Source: an uncultured Roseiflexus sp.
GTDB taxonomy: Bacteria > Chloroflexota > Chloroflexia > Chloroflexales > Roseiflexaceae
Direction of reading: 5' to 3'
Length of the DNA stretch: 54,559 bases
Assembly (NCBI GenBank): GCA_937935075.1
Contig: CALGYB010000047.1
Coordinates: 1-54,559 of the forward strand
The translations under genes and the position numbers were made by a program. Below are positions 6,555-54,559 of this stretch, in pieces. The first letter of the stretch is position 1, and each line of letters opens with the position of its first letter. The notes beneath the pieces were generated by a model. The model made no database searches. It was not told the origin of the DNA and saw only the letters and a program-made list of their open reading frames with translations.

Positions 6555-7723
6555 CCATTCTCTATGTGACCGGCTATGGCGCCCACGAATGGGCGCTGCA
6601 TACCCCGCGAAGTCTGATGCGTCGCGGGCATCGGGTGCTGGCGGCATGCCCGTTCGACTCGCCGATGGCGCGCCTGGCGCACGCTGCCGGCGTCGACGTC
6701 TGCACCTGGCAGGCGCCGCGTCATCTGAAGGAAGCGCGTCGTGTGATCGCTGCCATTGGCGCGCTCTATCGGCTGTTTCGCCAGCACCGACCGGACGTAG
6801 TCGTGTATTACGCGCTGCCGATCAGTCTGTGGGCGCGTGTTGCGGCGCGGTTGGCAGGCGTGCCGGTGCGCCTGTTCAAGCCGCCGAGCCTGTGGGACCT
6901 GGAATTGCGGCCCTATCGACTGGCGGAGTATAGCACCGCCTGGATGGACAGCGGGATTCTGGCGTCGAGCCGCGCGCTGGCGGACTACTACCGGCGCGCA
7001 CCGATTGCCTGCCGTAACGTGATTCTGAGTTACTACGGCTTTCCGCTCGAACGCTTCGATCCTGCGCTGAACGGCGCGGCAGTGCGTCAGGAACTCGCTA
7101 TTTCATCCGCTGCGCCGGTTGTGACGACCGTTGCGCATCTCATCCCGCCGATTCGCCGTTTCGATCCGCACTACGGCATCAAAGGGCACGAAGTGTTGAT
7201 CCGCGCGGCGCGCGATGTCGCGGCGCGCCTGCCTTCGGTGCGCTTCCTGATCGTCGGCGCCGAACCTGAAGGCGCTGATGGATCTTACGAGGCGTCGTTG
7301 AAGCAACTCGCGCGTGTGGAGGGGGTTAACCGCCACGTCATCTTTACCGGGAAACGCACCGACATTCCGGCGATCCTGGCGGCAAGCGATGTGGCGGCGG
7401 TTCCGTCACTCTCGGAGAATGTCGGCGGCGCCGTCGAGCCGTTGTTGATGGAGCGACCGGTGGTTGCCAGCGCGGTCGGCGGCTTGCCCGACGTGGTGCG
7501 CGACGGTGAAACCGGCTACCTCGTGCCGCCGCGCGACCCGGAGGCGCTGGCGGAAGCGTTGCTGCGCCTGCTGTCGCTCCCTCCGGCTGCCCGCCGCGCT
7601 ATGGGGCGGAGAGGACGCGCGATTGTGCAGGAACTGTTCGATATCGAGCGTGTGACGCTTGCTGAAGAACGCATCTTTTACCGTCTGCGAGGCGAACCGG
7701 TATGTGCGACCTTAGTATCGTGA
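6539..7723 (+). CDS. glycosyltransferase family 4 (GT-B fold)
   Basis: A 394-residue GT-B glycosyltransferase overlapping the previous gene by 16 bases. ATG 6539 follows a run of G residues that can serve as Shine-Dalgarno, and the protein then begins LTILYVTGYGAHEWAL, a normal N-terminus for the fold. The donor domain (residues about 267-370) almost duplicates that of its neighbour, suggesting both use a related nucleotide sugar, while the acceptor domains diverge and should recognise different growing chains (inference). Confidence 0.85.
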   Translation: MGAPLTILYVTGYGAHEWALHTPRSLMRRGHRVLAACPFDSPMARLAHAAGVDVCTWQAPRHLKEARRVIAAIGALYRLFRQHRPDVVVYYALPISLWARVAARLAGVPVRLFKPPSLWDLELRPYRLAEYSTAWMDSGILASSRALADYYRRAPIACRNVILSYYGFPLERFDPALNGAAVRQELAISSAAPVVTTVAHLIPPIRRFDPHYGIKGHEVLIRAARDVAARLPSVRFLIVGAEPEGADGSYEASLKQLARVEGVNRHVIFTGKRTDIPAILAASDVAAVPSLSENVGGAVEPLLMERPVVASAVGGLPDVVRDGETGYLVPPRDPEALAEALLRLLSLPPAARRAMGRRGRAIVQELFDIERVTLAEERIFYRLRGEPVCATLVS

Positions 7724-8637
7724 TTGTCAACTGGAACACGCGCGACCTGTTGCGCGCCTGTCTTGCATCATTGAGCGACGCCGCGCGCCGGATCGCCTGT
7801 GAGATCATCGTCGTCGATAACGCCTCGACCGATGGCAGCGCAGAGATGGTTCGCACCGCATTTCCACACGTGCGCCTGATGGCGCTGCCGGAGAACGTCG
7901 GTTTCGCCCGCGCCAACAATCTCGGATTTGCCCACGCACAGGGGCGGTATTTCCTGCTCTTGAATCCCGATACCTGGCTGCCGCCCGGCGCACTGGACGA
8001 GATGACGGCGCTGATGGACCGGATGCCGGATGTCGGCATTCTCGGTCCACGCCTGTTGAACGCCGACGGCAGTCTGCAACCATCATGCAGCCGGTTTCCG
8101 ACGCTCCTCAACATCACGCTGGATTGCTGGGGCGTCAGCCGGATCGCGCCGCGCAACCGCGTGCTTGCCCGCTTCAAAATGACGTGGTGGGCGCACGACA
8201 CGGCGCGCGATGTCGATCAGCCGTCGGGCGCGTGCCTGCTGGTGCGCCGCGAAGCCTGGGATGACGCCGGTCCACTCGACGAACGCTTCTTCATGTACTT
8301 CGAGGAAGTGGATTTCTGCTGGCGTGTGCGGCAGGCTGGCTGGCGCATCCGTTTCACGCCGACGCCACAGATCACGCACTATGGCGGCCAGAGTTCGCTC
8401 CAGAACCTCGATGCGCGTATTGCACAACGGTACGCCAGTCTGGTGTCGTTCTTCCGCAAACAGTATGGACCGCTGACGACCTGGGCGCTCTGTGCAGCGA
8501 TTGCGCCAGCGGCGCTGGCGCGCGCGGCGCTGGCGGCCTTGCGCGCGGCGCTGGCGGGTCAACGGCGGCAATGGGAGTACGCCGCACAATACTGGCGCGT
8601 GGCAACGCTCTTGTGCGGTTCGATGATTGCCCGGTGA
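7702..8637 (+). CDS. glycosyltransferase family 2 (rhamnosyltransferase-like)
   Basis: A 311-residue GT-A enzyme. LSIVIVNWNTRDLL, the DNAS motif (IIVVDNASTDGS) and the metal-binding DxD-like LLLNPDTWLPP are the hallmarks of WcaA/RfbF-like family 2 enzymes. EEVDFCWRVRQAGW is the typical catalytic-base region. A C-terminal hydrophobic segment after residue 255 may associate with the membrane. Start 7702 overlaps the preceding gene by 22 bases. Confidence 0.88.
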   Translation: MCDLSIVIVNWNTRDLLRACLASLSDAARRIACEIIVVDNASTDGSAEMVRTAFPHVRLMALPENVGFARANNLGFAHAQGRYFLLLNPDTWLPPGALDEMTALMDRMPDVGILGPRLLNADGSLQPSCSRFPTLLNITLDCWGVSRIAPRNRVLARFKMTWWAHDTARDVDQPSGACLLVRREAWDDAGPLDERFFMYFEEVDFCWRVRQAGWRIRFTPTPQITHYGGQSSLQNLDARIAQRYASLVSFFRKQYGPLTTWALCAAIAPAALARAALAALRAALAGQRRQWEYAAQYWRVATLLCGSMIAR

Positions 8638-8643
8638 AAAACG

Positions 8644-9738
8644 ATGAACGCGCTCTTTCTCACACGTTACAGTCAGCGTGGCGGCAGCAGCCGCTATATG
8701 GTGCATCAGTACCTGCCCGCGTATGCGCAGGCTGGCATTGCCTGCACCGTCGAGCCGCTGTTCGACGACCGGTACTTCGAGTTCGGCGTGCTCGACCGTC
8801 CGACGGGGTTTGGCGACATTGCACGTCATAGTCTGTACTTTGCGCGCCGTGTTGCGCGACGGCTGCGGGTGCTGCTGAACGCACACCGCTACGATCTGGT
8901 GGTATTCGAGAAAGAACTGCTCCCCTATCTGCCGGATGGATTTGAAGCATGGCTGCGGCGACGCGGTGTGAAACACGTGGTACTGTTCGACGATGCAACA
9001 TATGCCTACTACCGACGCCATCCCTTTCCGCTGGTGCGCTGGCTGTGTCGCGGCAAGATCGAGCGCATCGTGCGCCACGCCACGCACGTGATCGTCTGGA
9101 ATGAGCATCTGGCAGGGTACATGCGCCGCCTGAACCCACGTGTTTCGGTCGTGAACAGCGGCGTGGACATCACCCGTTACCCGCCGAAGGATTATCGCGC
9201 TCCTCGCGCCTCGAAGCGGCTGGTCATCGGCTGGATCGGCACACCCAACGGCTTTCCCTACCTGCGATCGCTGGAACCGGTCTTCGGCGAACTGGCGCAG
9301 CACTACCCGCTCGAACTGCACGTCATCAGTTCGGTTCCCTACGTCAGCGCCCACCTTCCGGTCGTCAACCGCATCTGGAGCCAGGCAACCGAGGTGCAAC
9401 ATCTCCATGCGTTCGACATCGGGGTCATGCCGTTGCCGGACGATGAATGGACCCGCGGCAAGAGCGGCGTCAAAGCCGTGCAGTATATGGCGGTCGGCGT
9501 TCCGGCAGTGTGTTCGCCGGTTGGCGTGGCGCGCCAGTTGATCATGCACAACGTCAATGGCTTGCTGGCGGACAACCCGACCGCCTGGCGTTGCGCCCTG
9601 GCACGGCTGCTCGACGACCCGGCGCTGCGCGAGCGGCTTGGCATGGCAGGACGCGCAACGGTGGCGCAGTCCTATTCCATTCAATCGGTTGCCCCGCGCC
9701 TGACGGATATTCTGTTGCGGGCAGGGCGTAGCACATAG
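8644..9738 (+). CDS. glycosyltransferase family 4
   Basis: A 364-residue GT-B protein starting MNALFLTRYSQRGGSSRYM. The donor-side domain shows VIGWIGTPNGFPYL and DIGVMPLPDDEWTRGKSGVKAVQYMAVGVP, in which the E-x-x-x-G-K-S-G-x-K pattern is common in family 4 enzymes that act late in exopolysaccharide assembly. It follows the family 2 gene by 6 bases and is followed by another glycosyltransferase 12 bases on. Confidence 0.82.
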   Translation: MNALFLTRYSQRGGSSRYMVHQYLPAYAQAGIACTVEPLFDDRYFEFGVLDRPTGFGDIARHSLYFARRVARRLRVLLNAHRYDLVVFEKELLPYLPDGFEAWLRRRGVKHVVLFDDATYAYYRRHPFPLVRWLCRGKIERIVRHATHVIVWNEHLAGYMRRLNPRVSVVNSGVDITRYPPKDYRAPRASKRLVIGWIGTPNGFPYLRSLEPVFGELAQHYPLELHVISSVPYVSAHLPVVNRIWSQATEVQHLHAFDIGVMPLPDDEWTRGKSGVKAVQYMAVGVPAVCSPVGVARQLIMHNVNGLLADNPTAWRCALARLLDDPALRERLGMAGRATVAQSYSIQSVAPRLTDILLRAGRST

Positions 9739-9750
9739 GAGGCATATTCG

Positions 9751-10950
9751 ATGACCGTGCGAGTCGCGCATGTGACGACCATCGACCAATCGCTGCGCTA
9801 TCTGCTGCTCAATCAACTGCGCAGCATCACCGACGCCGGGTATCAGGTCACGGGGATTTCCGCGCCAGGACCGGATGTGCCTGCGCTCGAAACACACGGC
9901 ATTCGCCATATCGCGGTTCCACTCACACGGCGCCTGACGCCGCTCGCCGATCTGCGCGCGTTACTGTGCCTGTACCGCGTGTTTCGCCGTGAACGTTTCA
10001 CGATCGTGCACACGCACACCCCCAAACCAGGGCTGCTGGGCCAACTGGCGGCGCGTCTGGCCGGGACGCCGGTGGTAATGAATACCATTCACGGCTTTTA
10101 TTTCCACGAGCACATGCCGCCAGCGCAGCGACGGTTCTACATCACGCTGGAACGGATTGCGGCGCGGTGCTCTGATCTCATTCTTTCGCAAAGTAGCGAG
10201 GACCTCGACACTGCGGTTCGTCTGGACATTTGTCCACGCGAGCGGATTCAGTTACTCGGCAACGGCATCGATATCCGGCGTTTTGACCGGAGTCGGATCG
10301 ATCCGGCGCATCTGGCGCGCCTGCGTCAGACGCTAGGGTTGCCGCCGGGCGTGCCGGTGATCGGCTTTGTCGGTCGGCTGGTCGCCGAGAAAGGGGTGAT
10401 CGAACTGGCGCGCGCCGTGCAACAGGTACAGTCGCGGTTCGGTCCGGTCGCACTCCTGGTTGTCGGCGGCGTTGATCGCGAGAAAGCGGATGCGCTCACC
10501 CCTGAGGATATTCAGGCGGCAGCAGGAACGGCGACTTGCGTGTTTGCCGGCGTTCGCCAGGATATGCCAGACATGTACGCCCTGATGGACATATTTGCGC
10601 TGCCATCGTACCGTGAAGGCTTTCCACGCGCACCGATGGAAGCGTCGGCAATGGGGGTTCCCTGTGTTGTGACCGATGTGCGCGGGTGTCGCGAGGCGGT
10701 CGAGCACGGGCGGAACGGACTGCTGACGCCGCTGCGCGCTGTCGATGCGCTGGCGGATGCCCTGGAGCGCCTGCTGCGGGATGACCGTCTGCGTGCAGCC
10801 ATGGGAGACGCCGGGCGCAGCGTAGCGTGCGAACGCTTCGATGAGCAGCAGGTGTTTCAACGAGTGATCGGCGCCTACCGGCGGTTACTGCACGAGAAAG
10901 GACTCCCCGCGCCAGAGAGCGCGGCAATGCCCGCAACCAGCAGAGCATAA
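9751..10950 (+). CDS. glycosyltransferase family 4 (PglA/CapM-like)
   Basis: A 399-residue GT-B enzyme with a strong AGGAGG eight bases before its ATG. HTHTPKPGLLGQLAARLAGTPVVMNTIHGFYFHE is the region that sets apart PglA/CapM enzymes, which add the second sugar to an undecaprenyl-linked N-acetylated amino sugar; ALPSYREGFPRAPMEASAMGVPCV is the donor-binding E-x7-E region. Being next to a PglC-type transferase and a PglD-type acetyltransferase supports that role, but the exact sugar is not known. Confidence 0.82.
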   Translation: MTVRVAHVTTIDQSLRYLLLNQLRSITDAGYQVTGISAPGPDVPALETHGIRHIAVPLTRRLTPLADLRALLCLYRVFRRERFTIVHTHTPKPGLLGQLAARLAGTPVVMNTIHGFYFHEHMPPAQRRFYITLERIAARCSDLILSQSSEDLDTAVRLDICPRERIQLLGNGIDIRRFDRSRIDPAHLARLRQTLGLPPGVPVIGFVGRLVAEKGVIELARAVQQVQSRFGPVALLVVGGVDREKADALTPEDIQAAAGTATCVFAGVRQDMPDMYALMDIFALPSYREGFPRAPMEASAMGVPCVVTDVRGCREAVEHGRNGLLTPLRAVDALADALERLLRDDRLRAAMGDAGRSVACERFDEQQVFQRVIGAYRRLLHEKGLPAPESAAMPATSRA

Positions 10951-10954
10951 TGCC

Positions 10955-11575
10955 ATGTACCGTCGTCATCTGAAGCGCATCTTCGACATCAGCATCGCCA
11001 GCGCGGCGCTCATTGCGCTGGCGCCGCTGCTGCTGATCATCGCAGCGCTGGTGCGCCTGTTGCTGGGAGCGCCGGTGATCTTTCGTCAGCAGCGCCCCGG
11101 ATTGCACGGCAAACCATTCACGCTGCTGAAGTTTCGCAGCATGACCGACGCGCGCGATGCCGAAGGCAACCTGTTGCCGGATGATCGGCGGCTGACGCGG
11201 TTCGGGCGCTTTCTGCGCAGCAGCAGCCTCGACGAACTGCCGGAACTGATCAACGTCATCCGTGGCGACATGAGCCTGGTAGGACCGCGCCCGCTGCTGA
11301 TGGAGTATCTGGATCGCTACACCCCGGAGCAGATGCGGCGGCATGCAGTGCGCCCCGGCATCACCGGATGGGCGCAGGTGAATGGGCGCAACGCGATTAC
11401 GTGGGAGCAGAAGTTTGCGCTGGATGTCTGGTATGTCGATCATCTCTCGTTCTGGCTCGATCTCCGCATTCTGGCGCTGACCATATGGCGGGTGGCGCGC
11501 TGTGAGGGGATCAACCAGCGCGGGTGTGCAACGGTGACAATCTTTCAAGGAACATCGGAAGGCAGGTCACAATGA
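10955..11575 (+). CDS. initiating phosphoglycosyltransferase (PglC/WcaJ type)
   Basis: A 206-residue monotopic phosphoglycosyltransferase, the short PglC type without the extra transmembrane domain of WbaP. It has an N-terminal reentrant hydrophobic helix (residues about 12-36), the FKKLRSM-like LLKFRSM, the catalytic Asp-Glu dyad (SSLDELPEL) and the SLVGPRPLL motif. It transfers a sugar-1-phosphate from a UDP-sugar to polyprenol phosphate at the cytoplasmic face of the membrane and so starts repeat-unit synthesis. It ends in an ATGA overlap with the acetyltransferase gene, tying the two steps together. Confidence 0.9.
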   Translation: MYRRHLKRIFDISIASAALIALAPLLLIIAALVRLLLGAPVIFRQQRPGLHGKPFTLLKFRSMTDARDAEGNLLPDDRRLTRFGRFLRSSSLDELPELINVIRGDMSLVGPRPLLMEYLDRYTPEQMRRHAVRPGITGWAQVNGRNAITWEQKFALDVWYVDHLSFWLDLRILALTIWRVARCEGINQRGCATVTIFQGTSEGRSQ

Positions 11576-27723: not shown

Positions 27724-29334
27724 ATGGATATAAGCGAACTCCTGGCAATTGCCGAACACGAAAACGCTCTGCGGCGACCGATCGGCATCCGCTGCTGCAC
27801 GGCGCTCGGATGCCAGTCGGCGGGGGCGCTGTCATTGAAACAACGGCTCGAAGAAGCGGTTGCCGAAGTGGATCGCACCGACATCGAGGTTATTGGCGTC
27901 GGCTGTATGGGGTTGTGCGGTCACGGTCCGCTGGTGCAGGTCGATCCGCATGGCGTGCTCTACGAGCATGTGCGCGCCGCCGATGCGCCATCGATCGTCG
28001 CAGCCCTCGATGGCGGCGAGGCGACGGCGCCGCAGGGCGATCCTCAACATCCCTTCTTCACCCTGCAGAAGCGGATCGTTCTGGAAAATAGCGGCATGAT
28101 CGACCCGGAGCGCATCGAGTCGTATATTGCCGCCGGCGGGTATCAGGCGCTCTACCACGTGCTGCACGATATGACTCCGGCGGAAGTGATCGATGTCGTC
28201 ACCCGCAGCGGTCTGCGCGGGCGCGGCGGCGCCGGGTACCCGACCGGTCTGAAGTGGGCGACGGTTGCCAAGAGCCACGGCGATCGCAAATATGTCGTCT
28301 GCAATGCCGACGAAGGCGACCCCGGCGCCTTCATGGATCGCAGCATCATCGAAAGCGATCCGCACAAGGTGCTCGAAGGCATGGCAATCGCCGCCTATGC
28401 CGTCGGCGCCGACCAGGGATACGTCTATGTGCGCGCCGAATATCCGCTGGCGATCCAGCGTTTGCAACGCGCAATTGCGCAAGCACGGCGACTGGGGCTG
28501 CTTGGGGCGCAGATTTTCGACGCCGGGTTCACCTTCCGCGTTGATATTCGCGTCGGCGCCGGCGCATTCGTGTGCGGCGAAGAAACAGCGCTCATGGCGT
28601 CGATTGAAGGCCGGCGCGGACAGCCGCGCCCGCGCCCGCCCTATCCCGCCGAAAGCGGATTGTGGGGCAGGCCGACGCTCATCAACAATGTCGAAACCTT
28701 CGCCAACATCCCGCCGATCATTCGCAACGGCGCCGAATGGTTCGCCGCGATCGGCGCAGAAACGAGCAAAGGGACGAAGGTGTTCGCCCTGACCGGCAAA
28801 ATCCGCCACACCGGTTTGATCGAAGTGCCCATGGGGGTCACACTGCGTCAGATCGTCGAAGATATGGGAGGCGGCGTGCCCGAAGGCAGGGTTAAAGCAG
28901 TGCAGACGGGCGGACCATCCGGCGGGTGCATCCCCGCTGCGCTGCTCGATACGCCGGTTGACTACGAATCATTGCAGCGCGTCGGCTCGATCATGGGGTC
29001 GGGTGGCATGGTGGTGATGGACGATGCGACCAACATGGTCGATGTTGCCCATTTCTACATGGAGTTCTGCAAGGACGAGTCGTGCGGCAAGTGCATTCCG
29101 TGCCGCGCGGGAACGGCACAGATGCTGCACATGCTCGACCTCATCCGATCCGGTCAGGCGACTGCCGCCGACCTCGCGCAACTCGAACAGCTCTGTCTGA
29201 TGGTTAAAGAAACCAGCCTCTGCGGTCTTGGTCAATCGGCGCCGAACCCGGTGCTGAGTACGATGAAATATTTCCGCGAGGAGTATGAGGCGTTGGTCAG
29301 AGGTGAGAGGTCAGAGGTGAGAGGTCAGAGGTGA
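27724..29334 (+). CDS. hoxF: bidirectional hydrogenase diaphorase subunit HoxF
   Basis: A 536-residue NADH-oxidising flavoprotein homologous to NuoF with an N-terminal thioredoxin-like [2Fe-2S] domain ([14 protein letters not shown] ... [10 protein letters not shown]). The FMN/NADH fold shows [16 protein letters not shown] and [14 protein letters not shown], and the C-terminal [4Fe-4S] ligands are [13 protein letters not shown] and TSLCGLG. It exchanges electrons with NAD(H). ATG 27724 fits the family N-terminus. The last 12 or so residues ([12 protein letters not shown]) are encoded by the downstream heptamer array, which also supplies the TGA stop. Confidence 0.95.
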
Positions 29335-29507
29335 GAGGTGAGAGGTCAGAGGTGAGAGGTGAGAGGTCAGAGGTGAGAGGTGAGAGGTGAGAGGTCAGAG
29401 GTGAGAGGTGAGAGGTGAGAGGTGAGAGGTGAGAGGTCAGAGGTGAGAGGTGAGAGGTCAGAGGTGAGAGGTCAGAGGTGAGAGGTCAGAGGTCAGAGGT
29501 CAGAGGT
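29298..29507 (+). repeat. 30-unit heptanucleotide array between hoxF and hoxU
   Basis: Exactly 30 uninterrupted 7-base units, every one (G/C)AGAGGT: 18 start with G and 12 with C. It overlaps the hoxF 3' end by 37 bases and ends 33 bases before hoxU. GAGGTGA, created wherever the next unit starts with G, is complementary to the 3' end of 16S rRNA, so the transcript would carry many Shine-Dalgarno-like sites. Confidence 0.97.
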
Positions 29508-40235: not shown

Positions 40236-40311
40236 TGGAGCCGGCGGCGGGATTCGAACCCGCGACCTACTGTTTACAAGACAGTTGCTCTGCCAGCTGA
40301 GCTACGCCGGC
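40236..40311 (-). tRNA. tRNA-Thr (anticodon UGU)
   Basis: A complete cloverleaf on the minus strand. Acceptor GCCGGCG pairs with CGCCGGC; the D arm contains AGCTCAGCTGGCAGAGC; the anticodon stem ACTGT/ACAGT encloses loop CTTGTAA with anticodon TGT; the T arm has GCGGG-TTCGAAT-CCCGC. The 3' CCA is encoded. Confidence 0.97.
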
Positions 40312-43383: not shown

Positions 43384-45141
43384 ATGACGCCTTTCCTGAC
43401 CCGCCGAAAACTGCTGACCGAGCGTCAGGAGGCGCTGCTCGAAGAGATTCGCGCGGCGCTGGAGGCGTTGCGCGCCGCATTGCAACGGTTCGGCGTCGAT
43501 GTGGCGCCCGCCGATGTGCGGATTCTCGATGACACCATCACCCACCTCGACGAACTGTTCCTGCTCGTCGTCGCCGGTGAATATAATTCGGGCAAGTCGA
43601 GTTTCATCAATGCACTCCTGGGAGCGCCGGTGGTCGCCGAGGGGGTGACTCCGACGACCGACCGGATTACGGTGCTGCGCTATGGCGACACGCCGGGTGA
43701 AGCAGTCAGCGGCGCGCTGCTGGTCGAGCACCGTTTCCCTGCCGAGGTGCTGCGCCGCATGGCAATTGTAGACACGCCGGGCACGAATGCAATCATCCGG
43801 CGCCACGAAGAGTTGACGCGCGACTTCATTCCCCGCGCCGACCTGGTGCTGTTCATTACATCCGCCACTCAGCCGTTTTCCGCCAGTGAACGCGCCTTTC
43901 TCGAACTCATCCGCGATTGGGGCAAAAAGGTCGTGATCATTGTCAACAAAGCCGACCTGCTCGATGACGCCGGTCTGGCCGAAGTGGTCACATTCGTTGG
44001 CAGGCACGCCGAAGACCTGTTTGGCATCCGTCCAGAAATCTTCCCCGTCTCGGCGCGGCTGGCGCGCCAGGCGCGCGACGGCGACGACCAGGCATTGTGG
44101 GATGCCAGTCGCTTCCCGGAGATCGAACAGTATATCAGTGAGACCCTCGACGAAGAGCAGCGTGTGCGGCTGAAACTCCTCTCGCCGCTCGGCGTGGCGC
44201 GCCGACTGGCGGAACGCTACCTGGTCGCCGTCGAGGATCGCCTGACGGCGCTGCGCGACGATGTTGCCGCGATTGAGAATATCGAACGGCAACTCGAGCA
44301 GTTCCGCAGCGATCTTGCCGACGATTTCCAGCGCCATCGCGCCGATGTCGCCAATATTCTCAACGAGTTCGAGCTCCGCGGCATGCAGTTCTTCGATGAT
44401 ACCATCCGCGTGAGCAATCTGTTCAACCTGGTTCGTCATCAGCAGGAGATCAGTGAAACATTTGCGCGCGATGTCGTCGCCGACGTGCCGCAGCAGATCG
44501 AAGAGCGCTTGCAGGCGCTCATCGACTGGATGGTGGGAAAGAACCTGCGTATGTGGCAGGGGGTCATGGAGTATCTGCGCCGCGAACGGGCGGTGCAGCA
44601 GCGCAGCGGACTGATCGGCGAGATCGGCGGGACCTTCGAGTACAACCGGAATGCGCTGATCGAAACGGTGGCCCGCGAGGCGGAAAAGGTCGTCGCCACC
44701 TACGACCGCGAGGCGGAAGCGCAGGCGCTGACCGAGGAGGTGCGTTCCGCAATCGCCGGTTCGACGCTGGTGGGCGCCGGCGCACTTGGGATCGGAACGT
44801 TGCTGGTGCTGCTGCTGCACGGCGCCCTGCTCGACGTGACCGGCGTGCTGGTCGCCGGGGTGCTGGCGCTCGGCGGGTTGTACATCATCCCGAACAAGCG
44901 GCGCCAGATCAAACGCCAGTTCCATCAGCGCGTCGCCGATCTGCGCGAGACGCTCACCGAAACGATGGAACGCCAGTTCAATGCTGAACTCGACCGCATG
45001 ATCACCCGCATCCGCGACGCCATCGACCCCTACACTCGCTTCGTCTATACCCAGCATGACCATCTGCTGACGACCCAGCGCGAACTGTCGGACGCCGAAG
45101 CGTCCATTGGTCGATTGCAGGCGGAAGTGGAGCGATCATGA
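43384..45141 (+). CDS. bacterial dynamin-like GTPase
   Basis: A 585-residue large GTPase. G1 is GEYNSGKSSFINAL (about 65-78), the G2 threonine is in TPTTD, G3 is IVDTPGTN (about 128) and G4 is IVNKADLL (about 187). Helical stalk-like segments follow, with many Glu/Arg heptads, and a paired hydrophobic segment near 465-505 (LVGAGALGIGTLLVLLLHGALLDVTGVLVAGVLALGG) acts as membrane paddle. Such proteins remodel or stabilise membranes under stress. It overlaps the following gene by ATGA. Confidence 0.9.
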   Translation: MTPFLTRRKLLTERQEALLEEIRAALEALRAALQRFGVDVAPADVRILDDTITHLDELFLLVVAGEYNSGKSSFINALLGAPVVAEGVTPTTDRITVLRYGDTPGEAVSGALLVEHRFPAEVLRRMAIVDTPGTNAIIRRHEELTRDFIPRADLVLFITSATQPFSASERAFLELIRDWGKKVVIIVNKADLLDDAGLAEVVTFVGRHAEDLFGIRPEIFPVSARLARQARDGDDQALWDASRFPEIEQYISETLDEEQRVRLKLLSPLGVARRLAERYLVAVEDRLTALRDDVAAIENIERQLEQFRSDLADDFQRHRADVANILNEFELRGMQFFDDTIRVSNLFNLVRHQQEISETFARDVVADVPQQIEERLQALIDWMVGKNLRMWQGVMEYLRRERAVQQRSGLIGEIGGTFEYNRNALIETVAREAEKVVATYDREAEAQALTEEVRSAIAGSTLVGAGALGIGTLLVLLLHGALLDVTGVLVAGVLALGGLYIIPNKRRQIKRQFHQRVADLRETLTETMERQFNAELDRMITRIRDAIDPYTRFVYTQHDHLLTTQRELSDAEASIGRLQAEVERS

Positions 45142-46328: not shown

Positions 46329-48407
<2,079 letters not shown>

Positions 48408-48632: not shown

Positions 48633-49742
48633 ATGTCGATCCATCGTGCTGAGCGCGATTTGAACCGATTCCGCCAGATTGTGCGCGGCAAGATCAAGAA
48701 GGACCTGCGCAAGTATATGTCGCAGGGCGAGATGATCGGCCGCCAGGGGCGCAAATACGTGTCGATCCCGCTGCCGCAGATTGAGCTGCCGCAGTTCCGC
48801 TACGGCACACGCCAGGGCGGCGGCGTCGGGCAGGGCGATGGCAACGTCGGCGATCCAATCGGGCAGGGCGATGGACAGTCGGGGCAGGGCGAGGCCGGCT
48901 CGGAACCAGGGCAGCACATTATCGAGGTCGATATTACCCTCGAAGAACTGGCGCAGATCCTTGGCGAGGAACTGCAACTGCCCAACATCCAGCCGAAGGG
49001 CAAGAAGAATATCATCTCGCAAAAGGATCGCTACTCCGGCATTCGCCGCGTCGGTCCCGACTCGCTGCGGCATTTCAAACGCACCTACCGCGAGGCGCTC
49101 AAACGCCAGATTTCGTCGGGTGAGTACAATATCGCCGACCCGATCGTCGTGCCGATCCGCCAGGATATGCGCTATCGCTCCTGGAAAGAAACGCTTCAGC
49201 CTGAGTCGAATGCGGTCATCATCTATATGATGGACGTGAGCGGCTCGATGGGCGCCGAGCAGAAGGAGCTGGTGCGCATTACCGCGTTCTGGATCGAAAC
49301 CTGGCTGCGCTCGCAGTACAAGGCGATCGATATTCGCTACATCGTGCACGACGCTGCTGCCAAAGAGGTCGATCAGGAGACGTTCTACCATATCCGCGAA
49401 GGCGGGGGCACCAAGATCAGTTCAGCGTACAAATTGTGCAACAAACTGATCGATGAGCGCTACCCGGCTGATGAGTGGAATATTTACCCGTTCCACTTCT
49501 CCGACGGCGACAACTGGGGCGGCGGTGATACGCGCGAATGCATCGAATTGCTGCGCACCCAACTTCTGCCCAAGGTCAACCAGTTCTGTTATGGTCAGGT
49601 GCGCTCGCTCTACGGCTCCGGGCGCTTCGCCCACGATCTCGAAGAGCACCTGGGCAAACACGAGGCGCTGGTGATCTCGGAGATTGCCGATCGCGACGAT
49701 ATCTACGACGCGATCAAGGATTTTCTTGGTAAAGGAAGATAG
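48633..49742 (+). CDS. YeaH/YhbH family (DUF444) VWA protein
   Basis: A 369-residue protein of the YeaH/YhbH family. The N-terminus is helical and basic, followed by a Gly-rich stretch ([20 protein letters not shown], residues about 71-90) and a VWA-like domain with a MIDAS-type [12 protein letters not shown] (about 197-208). Its partners PrkA and SpoVR flank it. The family is required for the PrkA-linked stress response, but its biochemistry is not settled. Confidence 0.93.
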
Positions 49743-50035: not shown

Positions 50036-52732
50036 ATGAAGAGTACCCGTCTCCCCCGAGAGTTGCAGGCTGCATGGGAGGAAATCGAAGCCTATGCAAA
50101 GGAGTATGGGCTTGACTTCTTCCCCATTATTTACGAAGTTCTCGATTATCGTACCCTCTACGAAACCGCGGCGCTCGGCGGTTTTCCGATTCGCTATCCC
50201 CACTGGCGCTTTGGCATGGAGTACGACCAGCTCATGAAGGGGCACGTCTGGCTTGGCTCCACGATTTATGAGATGGTCATCAACACCAACCCGTCGTATG
50301 CGTACCTGCTCGAAGGCAACGAGATGGTGACGCAAAAGATGGTCATGGCGCACGTCGCAGCGCACGTTGATTTCTTCAAGAACAATATGTGGTTCGCGCA
50401 TACGAACCGCAAGATGCTCGATGAAATGGCCAACCACGCCGCGCGTGTGCAGCGCATGATCGATCGCTACGGGTATGAGCAGGTCGAGGAGTTCATCGAC
50501 ATCTGCCTCTCGCTCGAAAACCTGATCGACTATCACGCACCCTATATCAAGCGCCCCGAAGCGCAGACCCATCAGTCGGTCATGGCAGAGGAAGAGCCGC
50601 AGGTGGTTGAGGGGTTGCCAGTTGAGCGCAGCTACATGCGCGACTATATCAACCCGCCGGAGTTTATCGAGCAACAGCGCAAGCGCCTCGAACGCGAACG
50701 CGCGCTTCAGAAGAAGTTCCCGGAGCATCCGCAGAAGGACGTGCTCCTCTTTCTGATGAATTATGCGCCGCTCGAACGCTGGCAGCATTCGATCCTCGAA
50801 ATCGTGCGCGATGAGGCGTACTACTTCGCGCCCCAGGGCATGACGAAGATCCTGAATGAAGGATGGGCCTGCTGCCGATACGATACGCTGGTGTTCACCG
50901 ATCAGGGCGTGCTCCGCATCGGCGATATCGTCGCCCAGCGACAGGCGGTGCGGGTGAGCGACGGCGAAACGCCGCAGGCCGTCTATGATTGGGCAGCGTT
51001 CGAGAACTATGAGACGATCCGGGTGCGCACGCGGCGCGGCTTGGAACTCGAAGGCTCGGTCAACCATCGCGTCATGCTGCCCGACGGCGGCTGGCGTCGC
51101 CTCGATGAACTCCAGGTTGGCGAAAGGGTCAGGATTGGCGGCGGGCAGAACCTGTGGGCGCACCAGTATGTCGCCCTCGATTGGTCGCCGGTGCGCCGTG
51201 CGACCCTCGCACAGATCGCTGATGCGGCAGAGGTCGATGTCGAGACCGTCATCCGCTACCGGCGCGGTGTGCGCGGCGTTCACGCAACAACGCTGGCGCC
51301 GCTCGTCGCAGCATACGATGCCGCCATCGCTGACCACGGCCCGATCATCCGGCGACGGGTCCCCATTCGCGTGCCGGAGGTGGTGGATGAGCGCCTGGCG
51401 GCGTTCCTGGGGTATCTGTGCGGCGATGGGCATATCAGCGCGGTCAAGCGCACCATTGGATTGACGACCGCCGATGAGGATCAGGCGCGCGCCTTCGCCG
51501 ATCTCGTCCATTCACTGTTTGGCATCGAAGCGCGCTGGCGCAGGAATGGAAACCGCTGGCGCGTCTCTTTCTATTCGCGCGACGTCCAGGATTTCCTGGT
51601 CCGCCTTGGTCTCAAAACTGACGTCGCAGCGCGCGAAAAGCGTGTGCCCGACGTCATTCTGCGCTCGCCGAAGCCGGTCGTTGCGGCGTTCCTGCGTGCG
51701 CTGTACGACTGCGATGGCTATGCAGGCGATGCTGGCGTCATTCTCTCCATCGCCAGCGAGGAGATGGGCAGAACCATTCAGGTGCTGCTGCTCAACTTTG
51801 GCATTCTCGCCAGCCGCCGCGCCAATACGGATGGTAAATGGCACATTCGCGTCACCGGTCGTTCGGCTGCCGTCTTCTTCGCCGAGATCGGCTTCGGTCT
51901 GGCGCGCAAGCAGGCGGCGCTGGCGCACTACATCGAGGATCGGCGCTGGTTTAGGCGTGAGGAGTGGTCGGACGAGATTGTGGCAATTGAGCGGGGACGC
52001 GCTCATGTGTACGATATCTCGGTGCATGCAACGCACCGCTACGCCGCGCAGGGGTTCATCAACCACAATAGCTACTGGCACTCCGAGATTATGACCCGCA
52101 AGGCGCTGCGCGATGATGAATTGATCGACTTCGCCGACCATCACTCCGGCGTGGTTGCGGTGCATCCCGGGCGCCTCAATCCGTACAAACTCGGGCTTGA
52201 ACTGCTGCGCGACATCGAGTTTCGCTGGAATACCGGGCGCTTCGGCAAAGAATACGAGGAGTGTGAGAACCTGGCTGCTAAACTCAACTGGGATAAGCAA
52301 CTGGGATTGGGTCGTCAGAAACTGTTCGAGATACGCCGTCTCTACAACGATGTCACCTTTATCGACGAGTTCCTGACGCCAGAGTTCGTGATGCAGCAGA
52401 AGCTCTTTACATTCCGCTATAATCGTGATACAGATATGTATGAGATTGCGTCGCGCGAGTTCAAGGAGATTAAGGAAAAGCTCCTGTTCCGCCTGACGAA
52501 CTTCGGCCAGCCGTTCATCTATGTCGAAGATGGCAACTACAACAATCGCGGCGAACTCTATCTGCGCCACCGCTACGAGGGGGTTGAGCTGAAGATGGAC
52601 TATGCGCGCGACACGATGCGCAACATTCAGCGTATCTGGACACGTCCGGTGCACCTCGAAACGGTGGTGGACGAGAAGCGGCGTCTGATCACCTTTGATG
52701 GGCGCGATTTCTCGGAACGGAAGATGGATTAG
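50036..52732 (+). CDS. spoVR: SpoVR family protein interrupted by an intein
   Basis: An 898-codon frame that encodes a 498-residue SpoVR/YcgB protein once the 400-residue intein (residues 279-678) is spliced out. N-extein features are RELQAAWEEIEAYAKEYGLDFFP and HVAAHVDFFKNN; the insertion splits the invariant NEGWA|SYWHSEIM signature, which is probably at the active or binding site, and the C-extein starts SYWHSEIMTRKAL. Function of SpoVR is unknown beyond its genetic link with PrkA and YeaH. Without splicing the protein should be inactive because the most conserved motif is disrupted. Confidence 0.95.
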   Translation: MKSTRLPRELQAAWEEIEAYAKEYGLDFFPIIYEVLDYRTLYETAALGGFPIRYPHWRFGMEYDQLMKGHVWLGSTIYEMVINTNPSYAYLLEGNEMVTQKMVMAHVAAHVDFFKNNMWFAHTNRKMLDEMANHAARVQRMIDRYGYEQVEEFIDICLSLENLIDYHAPYIKRPEAQTHQSVMAEEEPQVVEGLPVERSYMRDYINPPEFIEQQRKRLERERALQKKFPEHPQKDVLLFLMNYAPLERWQHSILEIVRDEAYYFAPQGMTKILNEGWACCRYDTLVFTDQGVLRIGDIVAQRQAVRVSDGETPQAVYDWAAFENYETIRVRTRRGLELEGSVNHRVMLPDGGWRRLDELQVGERVRIGGGQNLWAHQYVALDWSPVRRATLAQIADAAEVDVETVIRYRRGVRGVHATTLAPLVAAYDAAIADHGPIIRRRVPIRVPEVVDERLAAFLGYLCGDGHISAVKRTIGLTTADEDQARAFADLVHSLFGIEARWRRNGNRWRVSFYSRDVQDFLVRLGLKTDVAAREKRVPDVILRSPKPVVAAFLRALYDCDGYAGDAGVILSIASEEMGRTIQVLLLNFGILASRRANTDGKWHIRVTGRSAAVFFAEIGFGLARKQAALAHYIEDRRWFRREEWSDEIVAIERGRAHVYDISVHATHRYAAQGFINHNSYWHSEIMTRKALRDDELIDFADHHSGVVAVHPGRLNPYKLGLELLRDIEFRWNTGRFGKEYEECENLAAKLNWDKQLGLGRQKLFEIRRLYNDVTFIDEFLTPEFVMQQKLFTFRYNRDTDMYEIASREFKEIKEKLLFRLTNFGQPFIYVEDGNYNNRGELYLRHRYEGVELKMDYARDTMRNIQRIWTRPVHLETVVDEKRRLITFDGRDFSERKMD
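50870..52069 (+). mobile_element. intein with LAGLIDADG homing endonuclease and helix-turn-helix
   Basis: A 400-residue in-frame intein. Block A begins Cys1 in CCRYDTLVFTDQG; block B has the S-x-x-H in EGSVNHRVMLPDG; block F is VYDISVHATHRYA; block G is GFINHN with the terminal Asn followed by Ser+1. Two dodecapeptide endonuclease motifs, FLGYLCGDGH (about 178) and FLRALYDCDGY (about 273), each keep the catalytic Asp. Between block B and the first motif, TLAQIADAAEVDVETVIRYR (about 111-130) reads as a helix-turn-helix that could add DNA specificity. All splicing residues are present, so it should be active. Confidence 0.95.
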
Positions 52733-54180: not shown

Positions 54181-54559
54181 GTGGGAACGACCACCGCACG
54201 GCCGCGGCGCCGCCCACGCGCCCCATCCCGCGCCACCACGCACCCTATCCCACGCCCACTCGCCCTATCCCGCCGCGCCCGCGCGCCCCATCCCGCACCC
54301 GCACGCGCCCTATCCCGCCGCGCCCGCACGAACGGCGCCCATCGCCCACACGCCCGCGCCGCCGCGCCCGCGCGCCCATTCCTCCGCCGCGCCCACACGA
54401 ACGGCGCCCGCGCCCGTGTACCCCATCCCGCGTCGCCGCGCGCCCCATCCCGCGCCACCACGCACCCTATCCCACGCCCACTCGCCCTATCCCGCCGCGC
54501 CCGCGCGCCGCATCCCGCACCCGCGCGCGCCCATTCCACGCCGCCCACGCCGTGCGCCC
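54181..54559. repeat. GC-rich degenerate repeat block to window end
   Basis: Made of CCCATCCCGC, CCCTATCCC and CGCCCGCGC-type short units. A segment of about 92 bases at 54218-54310 recurs at 54440-54532 with about two differences. Open frames here are low-complexity and unlikely to be genes. Confidence 0.85.

Follow-up and report, generated by a model that had tools for sequence, protein, structure and literature searches.

The SpoVR gene in the window (the whole 54,559-nucleotide stretch of DNA analysed here) is interrupted by an in-frame insert, which we read, at a probability of roughly 0.93, as a mobile bifunctional intein of class 1 type, at once a splicing element and a homing element. 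The SpoVR intein is a known kind of element with an unexpectedly wide range, occurring in bacteria, salt-loving archaea and phage-like contigs. Its host protein is part of a widespread stress and sporulation module of unknown chemistry, the other two genes of which, for PrkA and YeaH, lie upstream in the window (Table 1). Clustering of the PrkA, DUF444 and SpoVR genes was already known from haloarchaea (PMC3102087).

Table 1. Coordinates of the module genes, the SpoVR precursor and the parts of its intein in the window
Feature	Position	Strand	Support
PrkA (YeaG) AAA+/kinase gene, module gene 1	46329..48407	+	Pfam AAA_PrkA 8.8e-94, PrkA 9e-92
YeaH (DUF444) gene, module gene 2	48633..49742	+	Pfam DUF444 4e-94
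SpoVR-intein precursor ORF, 898 aa	50036..52732	+	
SpoVR N-extein, 278 aa, C-terminal end ...NEGWA	50036..50869	+	
Intein, 400 aa, Hint + HTH + LAGLIDADG homing endonuclease	50870..52069	+	
Hint N-terminal half, intein 1-104, Cys1 at 50870-50872, block B SVNH at 63-66	50870..51181	+	TIGR01445 at 50870-51076; C1, H66 invariant 53/53
Helix-turn-helix (HTH), intein 111-133, LacI-like in homologues	51200..51268	+	PF00356 E ~2e-5 in two homologues; two modelled helices
LAGLIDADG homing endonuclease domain, intein 163-357, borders approximate	51356..51940	+	PF14528; Foldseek to I-DmoI, I-Tsp061I
LAGLIDADG motif 1, LGYLCGDG, intein 180-187, catalytic Asp186 present	51407..51430	+	
LAGLIDADG motif 2, LYDCDG, intein 278-283, catalytic Asp282 present	51701..51718	+	
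Hint C-terminal half, intein 358-400, last residues NHN	51941..52069	+	H399, N400 invariant 53/53
SpoVR C-extein, 220 aa, first residue Ser+1 (SYWHSEIM)	52070..52732	+	

The intein makes up residues 279-678 of the 898-residue reading frame, with the junctions NEGWA/CCRYDTLV and GFINHN/SYWHSEIM, and the translated extein halves joined without it give a protein of 498 residues. The Pfam match to SpoVR (E 1.4e-123) falls into two stretches that flank matches to LAGLIDADG_3 (1.4e-21) and Intein_splicing (5.6e-9). In a whole-genome profile search the only TIGR01445 match, scoring above the cut-off, started exactly at position 50870. The Pfam Intein_splicing profile scored 33.9 on the whole ORF, slightly below its cut-off of 35.8, and 36.4 on the intein alone, which passes; PF14890 missed the SpoVR intein in a six-frame search of the genome, yet matched the translated intein. 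Cys1, His66, Asn400 and Ser+1, a residue set of class 1 type, are all present, and block B has the form S-x-x-H, common to 48 of 53 relatives, rather than the commoner T-x-x-H. A Cys1 residue predicts class 1 splicing chemistry. The initial annotation had described a complete 400-residue intein at 50870-52069 with Cys1, S-x-x-H, two LAGLIDADG motifs and a terminal HN/Ser+1; all of these coordinates and features hold, and Hint homology, the lack of which had been named beforehand as evidence to the contrary, is present in the TIGR01445, Pfam and fold matches. Chance origin is excluded, since the in-frame insert has 53 homologues at the identical codon boundary. From the sequence we infer that the window copy would splice and that its endonuclease would cut DNA.

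The precursor was modelled with AlphaFold2 from 29 aligned sequences (mean pLDDT 78, the intein mostly 80-97), giving a predicted order of Hint domain, three-helix segment, two LAGLIDADG units and Hint C-terminus. Endonuclease-bearing VMA inteins are the closest solved structures (Foldseek E 8.7e-20; VIA Z 33.5 over 312 residues for TliVMA); PI-PfuI aligned with Z 29 over exactly residues 279 to 678, and the splicing domain of the Mtu RecA intein with Z 20, likewise over residues 279 to 678. The helix-turn-helix, which the initial annotation did not contain, sits between the splicing and endonuclease parts and forms the core of the modelled three-helix segment. Its PF00356 (LacI HTH) matches in the two homologues score below the curated threshold, and HTH matches to the window copy are only weak. 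Within the genus this segment is the fastest-evolving part of the intein (dN/dS 0.19-0.46), and it is absent or shrunken in short SpoVR inteins. We infer that it contributes to recognition of the target DNA.

Elsewhere in the window, an array of about 30 copies of the 7-base unit GGTGAGA lies at 29295-29507, and degenerate G+C-rich tandem repeats at 54207-54550, the window end, form proline/arginine-rich ORFs in several frames. A tRNA-Ser call by ARAGORN at 43432-43509, inside an ORF at 43384-45141, is without Rfam support and probably false, unlike the tRNA-Thr at 40236-40311.

A search of SpoVR homologues for inserts at the same site, which the initial annotation had proposed, yielded 53 complete inteins at a NEGWA/S-type boundary. 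Thirty complete copies, including the window copy, belong to the order (Chloroflexales), are 274-402 residues long and share the identical codon boundary; all seven complete copies found in a Chloroflexus-like genus are short, at 274-279 residues, and without an endonuclease. On the SpoVR tree of Chloroflexota the presence of the intein changes at least 9 times. Outside the order, a census of 84,980 species genomes was made with a degenerate NEGWAC pattern, which is biased toward Cys after NEGWA and was chosen as the wider pattern after an earlier block-A-residue pattern had missed several known copies. It returned at least 115 stretches, mostly natural Cys variants, with at least about 22 inteins among the matches listed, from Planctomycetota, Myxococcota, Bipolaricaulota, Armatimonadota, Beta- and Gammaproteobacteria, Halobacteria and Chloroflexota; except for Chloroflexota and Halobacteria, these counts are minimum values. 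A SpoVR intein in Acidobacteria, also from this census, has a broken frame. In a sample of Halobacteria the intein was present in 10 of 171 SpoVR-bearing genomes, clearly separated in score from other inteins. The only match in the plasmid collection was a distant intein, in a Streptomyces gene unrelated to SpoVR (L239) whose annotation says no more than LAGLIDADG homing endonuclease.

Phage-like contigs extend this range. Searching IMG/VR with a peptide pattern of the window intein gave no match, but the NEGWAC DNA pattern did, and revealed SpoVR inteins in more than 12 contigs. The viral label of most of these contigs is that of IMG/VR, and no structural phage gene was seen in the contig parts examined. 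Contig L303 encodes at 7380-11489 a SpoVR of 1369 residues with two inteins, at NEGWA/S and at VIN/T, which is also a conserved motif; genes for PrkA and YeaH lie next to it. The NEGWA/S intein is present in each of L310, L318, L319, L334 and L342; the ORFs of L318, L319, L334 and L342 are similarly long to that of L303 and may likewise hold a second insert, and that of L310 is shorter. The NEGWA/S intein of L347 (6224-8929) is about 26% identical to other SpoVR inteins and may represent an independent invasion; in the same contig the PrkA-YeaH-SpoVR module adjoins a DnaB-type helicase, a DnaC-type loader and a sigma factor of phage families. In a 636-kb uncultured phage (L292, LR756504.1) the SpoVR ORF, starting at about 2429, holds a mini-intein of about 129 residues at NEG/C, two codons upstream of NEGWA/S, where Cys replaces the conserved Trp; it is closest to beta- and gammaproteobacterial SpoVR inteins. 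Separately, Psychrobacillus phage Perkons (L240, 1001-2107) carries an intein inside its terminase.

The same data bear on whether one allele spread or whether unrelated inteins invaded the NEGWA-S site repeatedly, the latter being unlikely in our judgement. A main clade of 36 rows (SH-aLRT 98) unites copies from Chloroflexota, Planctomycetota, Myxococcota, Bipolaricaulota, Halobacteria and IMG/VR contigs; most of its full-length bacterial and archaeal members are 40-65% identical to the window intein, its IMG/VR copies are 44% identical to it, and its members have the internal HTH region in common, all of which speaks against repeated invasion. In its favour, the beta- and gammaproteobacterial, armatimonad and L347 copies are not firmly placed in the main clade, and holding all SpoVR inteins as one clade against other inteins gave p values of 0.31 and 0.45, by which a single clade is neither rejected nor established.

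Six genomes of the genus were compared for intein-free alleles in related strains, which the initial annotation had suggested looking for. Four carry the intein; in the other two, of which one is a single-contig genome, the site NEGWASYWHSEI is clean and uninterrupted, without a scar. Both catalytic Asp residues of the endonuclease are intact in the window copy and in G003, and the endonucleases of G004, with Asn in motif 1, and G005, which has lost Asp-Gly in motif 1, are dead. Synonymous divergence among the four intein-bearing members is similar for intein and extein, and these copies therefore look vertically inherited since their split; the two empty genomes look like cases of loss or of non-invasion. 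Within the genus dN/dS is 0.07-0.10 for the splicing parts, 0.15-0.33 for the endonuclease and 0.01-0.04 for the extein. Empty alleles, apparently active copies and decayed copies of a single homing element occur side by side in the genus, as in a textbook homing cycle, and provide natural alleles for tests of homing and splicing.

Across the 53 complete inteins Cys1, His66, His399 and Asn400 are invariant; at +1, 50 have Ser and 3 have Cys. Both catalytic Asp residues of the endonuclease are kept in 30, and the remaining 23 have either lost the endonuclease or lack a catalytic Asp in it.

The initial annotation further proposed that splicing could act as a post-translational switch on the PrkA-YeaH-SpoVR module, a proposal for which we obtained no positive support. 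On this reading the intein would be kept for conditional splicing, with SpoVR inactive until stress or heat, and we regard this as improbable. The insert does divide the most conserved motif of the protein, so that the unspliced precursor is very likely inactive, the endonuclease-free small inteins are fixed in the Chloroflexus-like genus (7/7) and purifying selection on the splicing parts is strong; such selection, however, is expected of any intein in a useful gene. Moreover, presence is sporadic within the genus, the order and the class, relatives without the intein still possess the gene, no regulatory feature came to light, and 30 of the 53 copies retain the endonuclease, as a homing parasite predicts. 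Sporadic presence, common empty alleles, a decaying endonuclease and fixed splicing residues are together explained by a homing parasite that is obliged to splice. A block of SpoVR until splicing is probably a by-product of the insertion rather than a selected switch. That the intein is dead, with the unspliced precursor or two separate SpoVR halves acting as such, is scarcely credible, given that Cys1, His66, His399, Asn400 and Ser+1 are present, the first four without exception in the homologues, and that the frame is open and its splicing parts are under purifying selection.

A mobile intein that both splices and homes would act as follows. In the 898-residue precursor an acyl shift at Cys1 would be followed by transfer to Ser+1 and by cyclisation of Asn400, aided by His66 and His399; excision of the 400-residue intein would restore NEGWA-SYWH and a SpoVR of 498 residues. 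The freed intein, with its LAGLIDADG and HTH parts, would then cleave the corresponding site of spoVR alleles without an intein and spread through repair of the break. Persistence at NEGWAS is accounted for by two properties of the site: as the most conserved stretch of SpoVR it offers a target that recurs in distant hosts and does not tolerate imprecise loss, and its native Ser or Cys provides the +1 nucleophile. The initial annotation started from a preference of inteins for nucleic-acid enzymes, which is not needed here; the common factor in this case is a site that is conserved and hard to lose. An Ala residue is unable to serve as the +1 nucleophile, and splicing cannot finish with it. 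Among haloarchaea the +1 position is Ala in 24 of 30 intein-free genomes (L195-L224, the best-scoring matches and not a random draw) versus Ser in 9 of 9 intein-bearers (Fisher p 2e-5, ignoring relatedness), and this Ala may be a natural resistance to invasion by the intein.

The site itself points to a functional centre of SpoVR, as had been proposed from the window alone. NEGWAS is the most conserved hexamer in 67 SpoVR homologues that were not chosen by that motif, and in the model of the intein-free protein (mean pLDDT 76) NEGWA lies within a predicted helix, residues 264-283. That the insertion recurs at a single codon boundary across two domains and phage-like contigs points the same way, as would a predicted zincin-like fold, in which the equivalent Glu is a metal ligand. 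A Foldseek search with the SpoVR model gave no match at E < 1; after VIA realignment of the Foldseek candidates, the first 15 were zinc metallopeptidases or their relatives (Z 5.6-10.6), with M1, M2, M9, M32 and M61 among the families. His106, His110, Glu79, Glu151 and Glu275 are near-invariant in the 67 proteins, and the intein is inserted three residues past Glu275. In M1 peptidases the third zinc ligand lies in NEGFA-type motifs. NEGWA resembles the M1 motifs NEAFA and DEGLA of relatives, a likeness to which profile-profile comparison gives no support; searches for a zincin relation by sequence or profile (Pfam at E 10, a PDB profile search, and hhalign against M1 and M32 of relatives) were all negative. 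An HExxH motif with its catalytic Glu is absent from SpoVR, which has H-x-x-x-H instead (HVEAH, HVTGH, HVAAH; HACYGH in E. coli). The titles and abstracts covered by our literature search, which left subscription journals aside, nowhere treat SpoVR as a metallopeptidase.

On this basis we tentatively suggest that SpoVR could be a zincin-like metalloprotein in which His106, His110 and Glu275 bind a metal. Because the intein lies three residues after the putative ligand Glu in its helix, splicing could be the step that completes the metal site. In the same tentative scheme the intein would have crossed between bacteria, archaea and phages, perhaps by way of phages that encode the module. The metal site is put forward as a possibility somewhat short of even odds, and its value is that it is concrete, naming three residues.

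A literature search, with subscription journals outside its coverage, found no paper that combines SpoVR and an intein. One known relative is the SpoVR intein of Chloroflexus aurantiacus, the InBase entry Cau SpoVR. An intein of 276 residues in genome G012, which we take to be strain J-10-fl, occupies the identical host protein and site; it has lost the Asp residues of the endonuclease and the greater part of the HTH, whereas the window copy has its full length and retains the catalytic Asp pair. The VMA inteins TliVMA and PhoVMA of the archaeal V-ATPase (PDB 7qsu, 7qss, 7qst) are, like the window intein, Hint domains with an inserted double-LAGLIDADG endonuclease, and they are its top match both in sequence (E 5.6e-21) and in fold (Z 33.5); they differ in host protein and site and are about 28% identical to it. 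In the window intein an HTH segment about 50 residues long precedes the endonuclease, which may be a further difference. PI-PfuI (1dq3), which aligns from Cys1 to Asn, and PI-SceI (1vde) are bifunctional in splicing and homing as the window intein appears to be, but reside in other host genes and have other DNA-recognition subdomains. The halobacterial survey of Soucy et al. 2014 listed 24 intein alleles in 13 genes, SpoVR not among them (PMC4071816); the haloarchaeal SpoVR inteins found here are absent from it. With the alleles of that survey the SpoVR intein shares its lifestyle: sporadic presence, full and mini forms, and transfer across class and domain.
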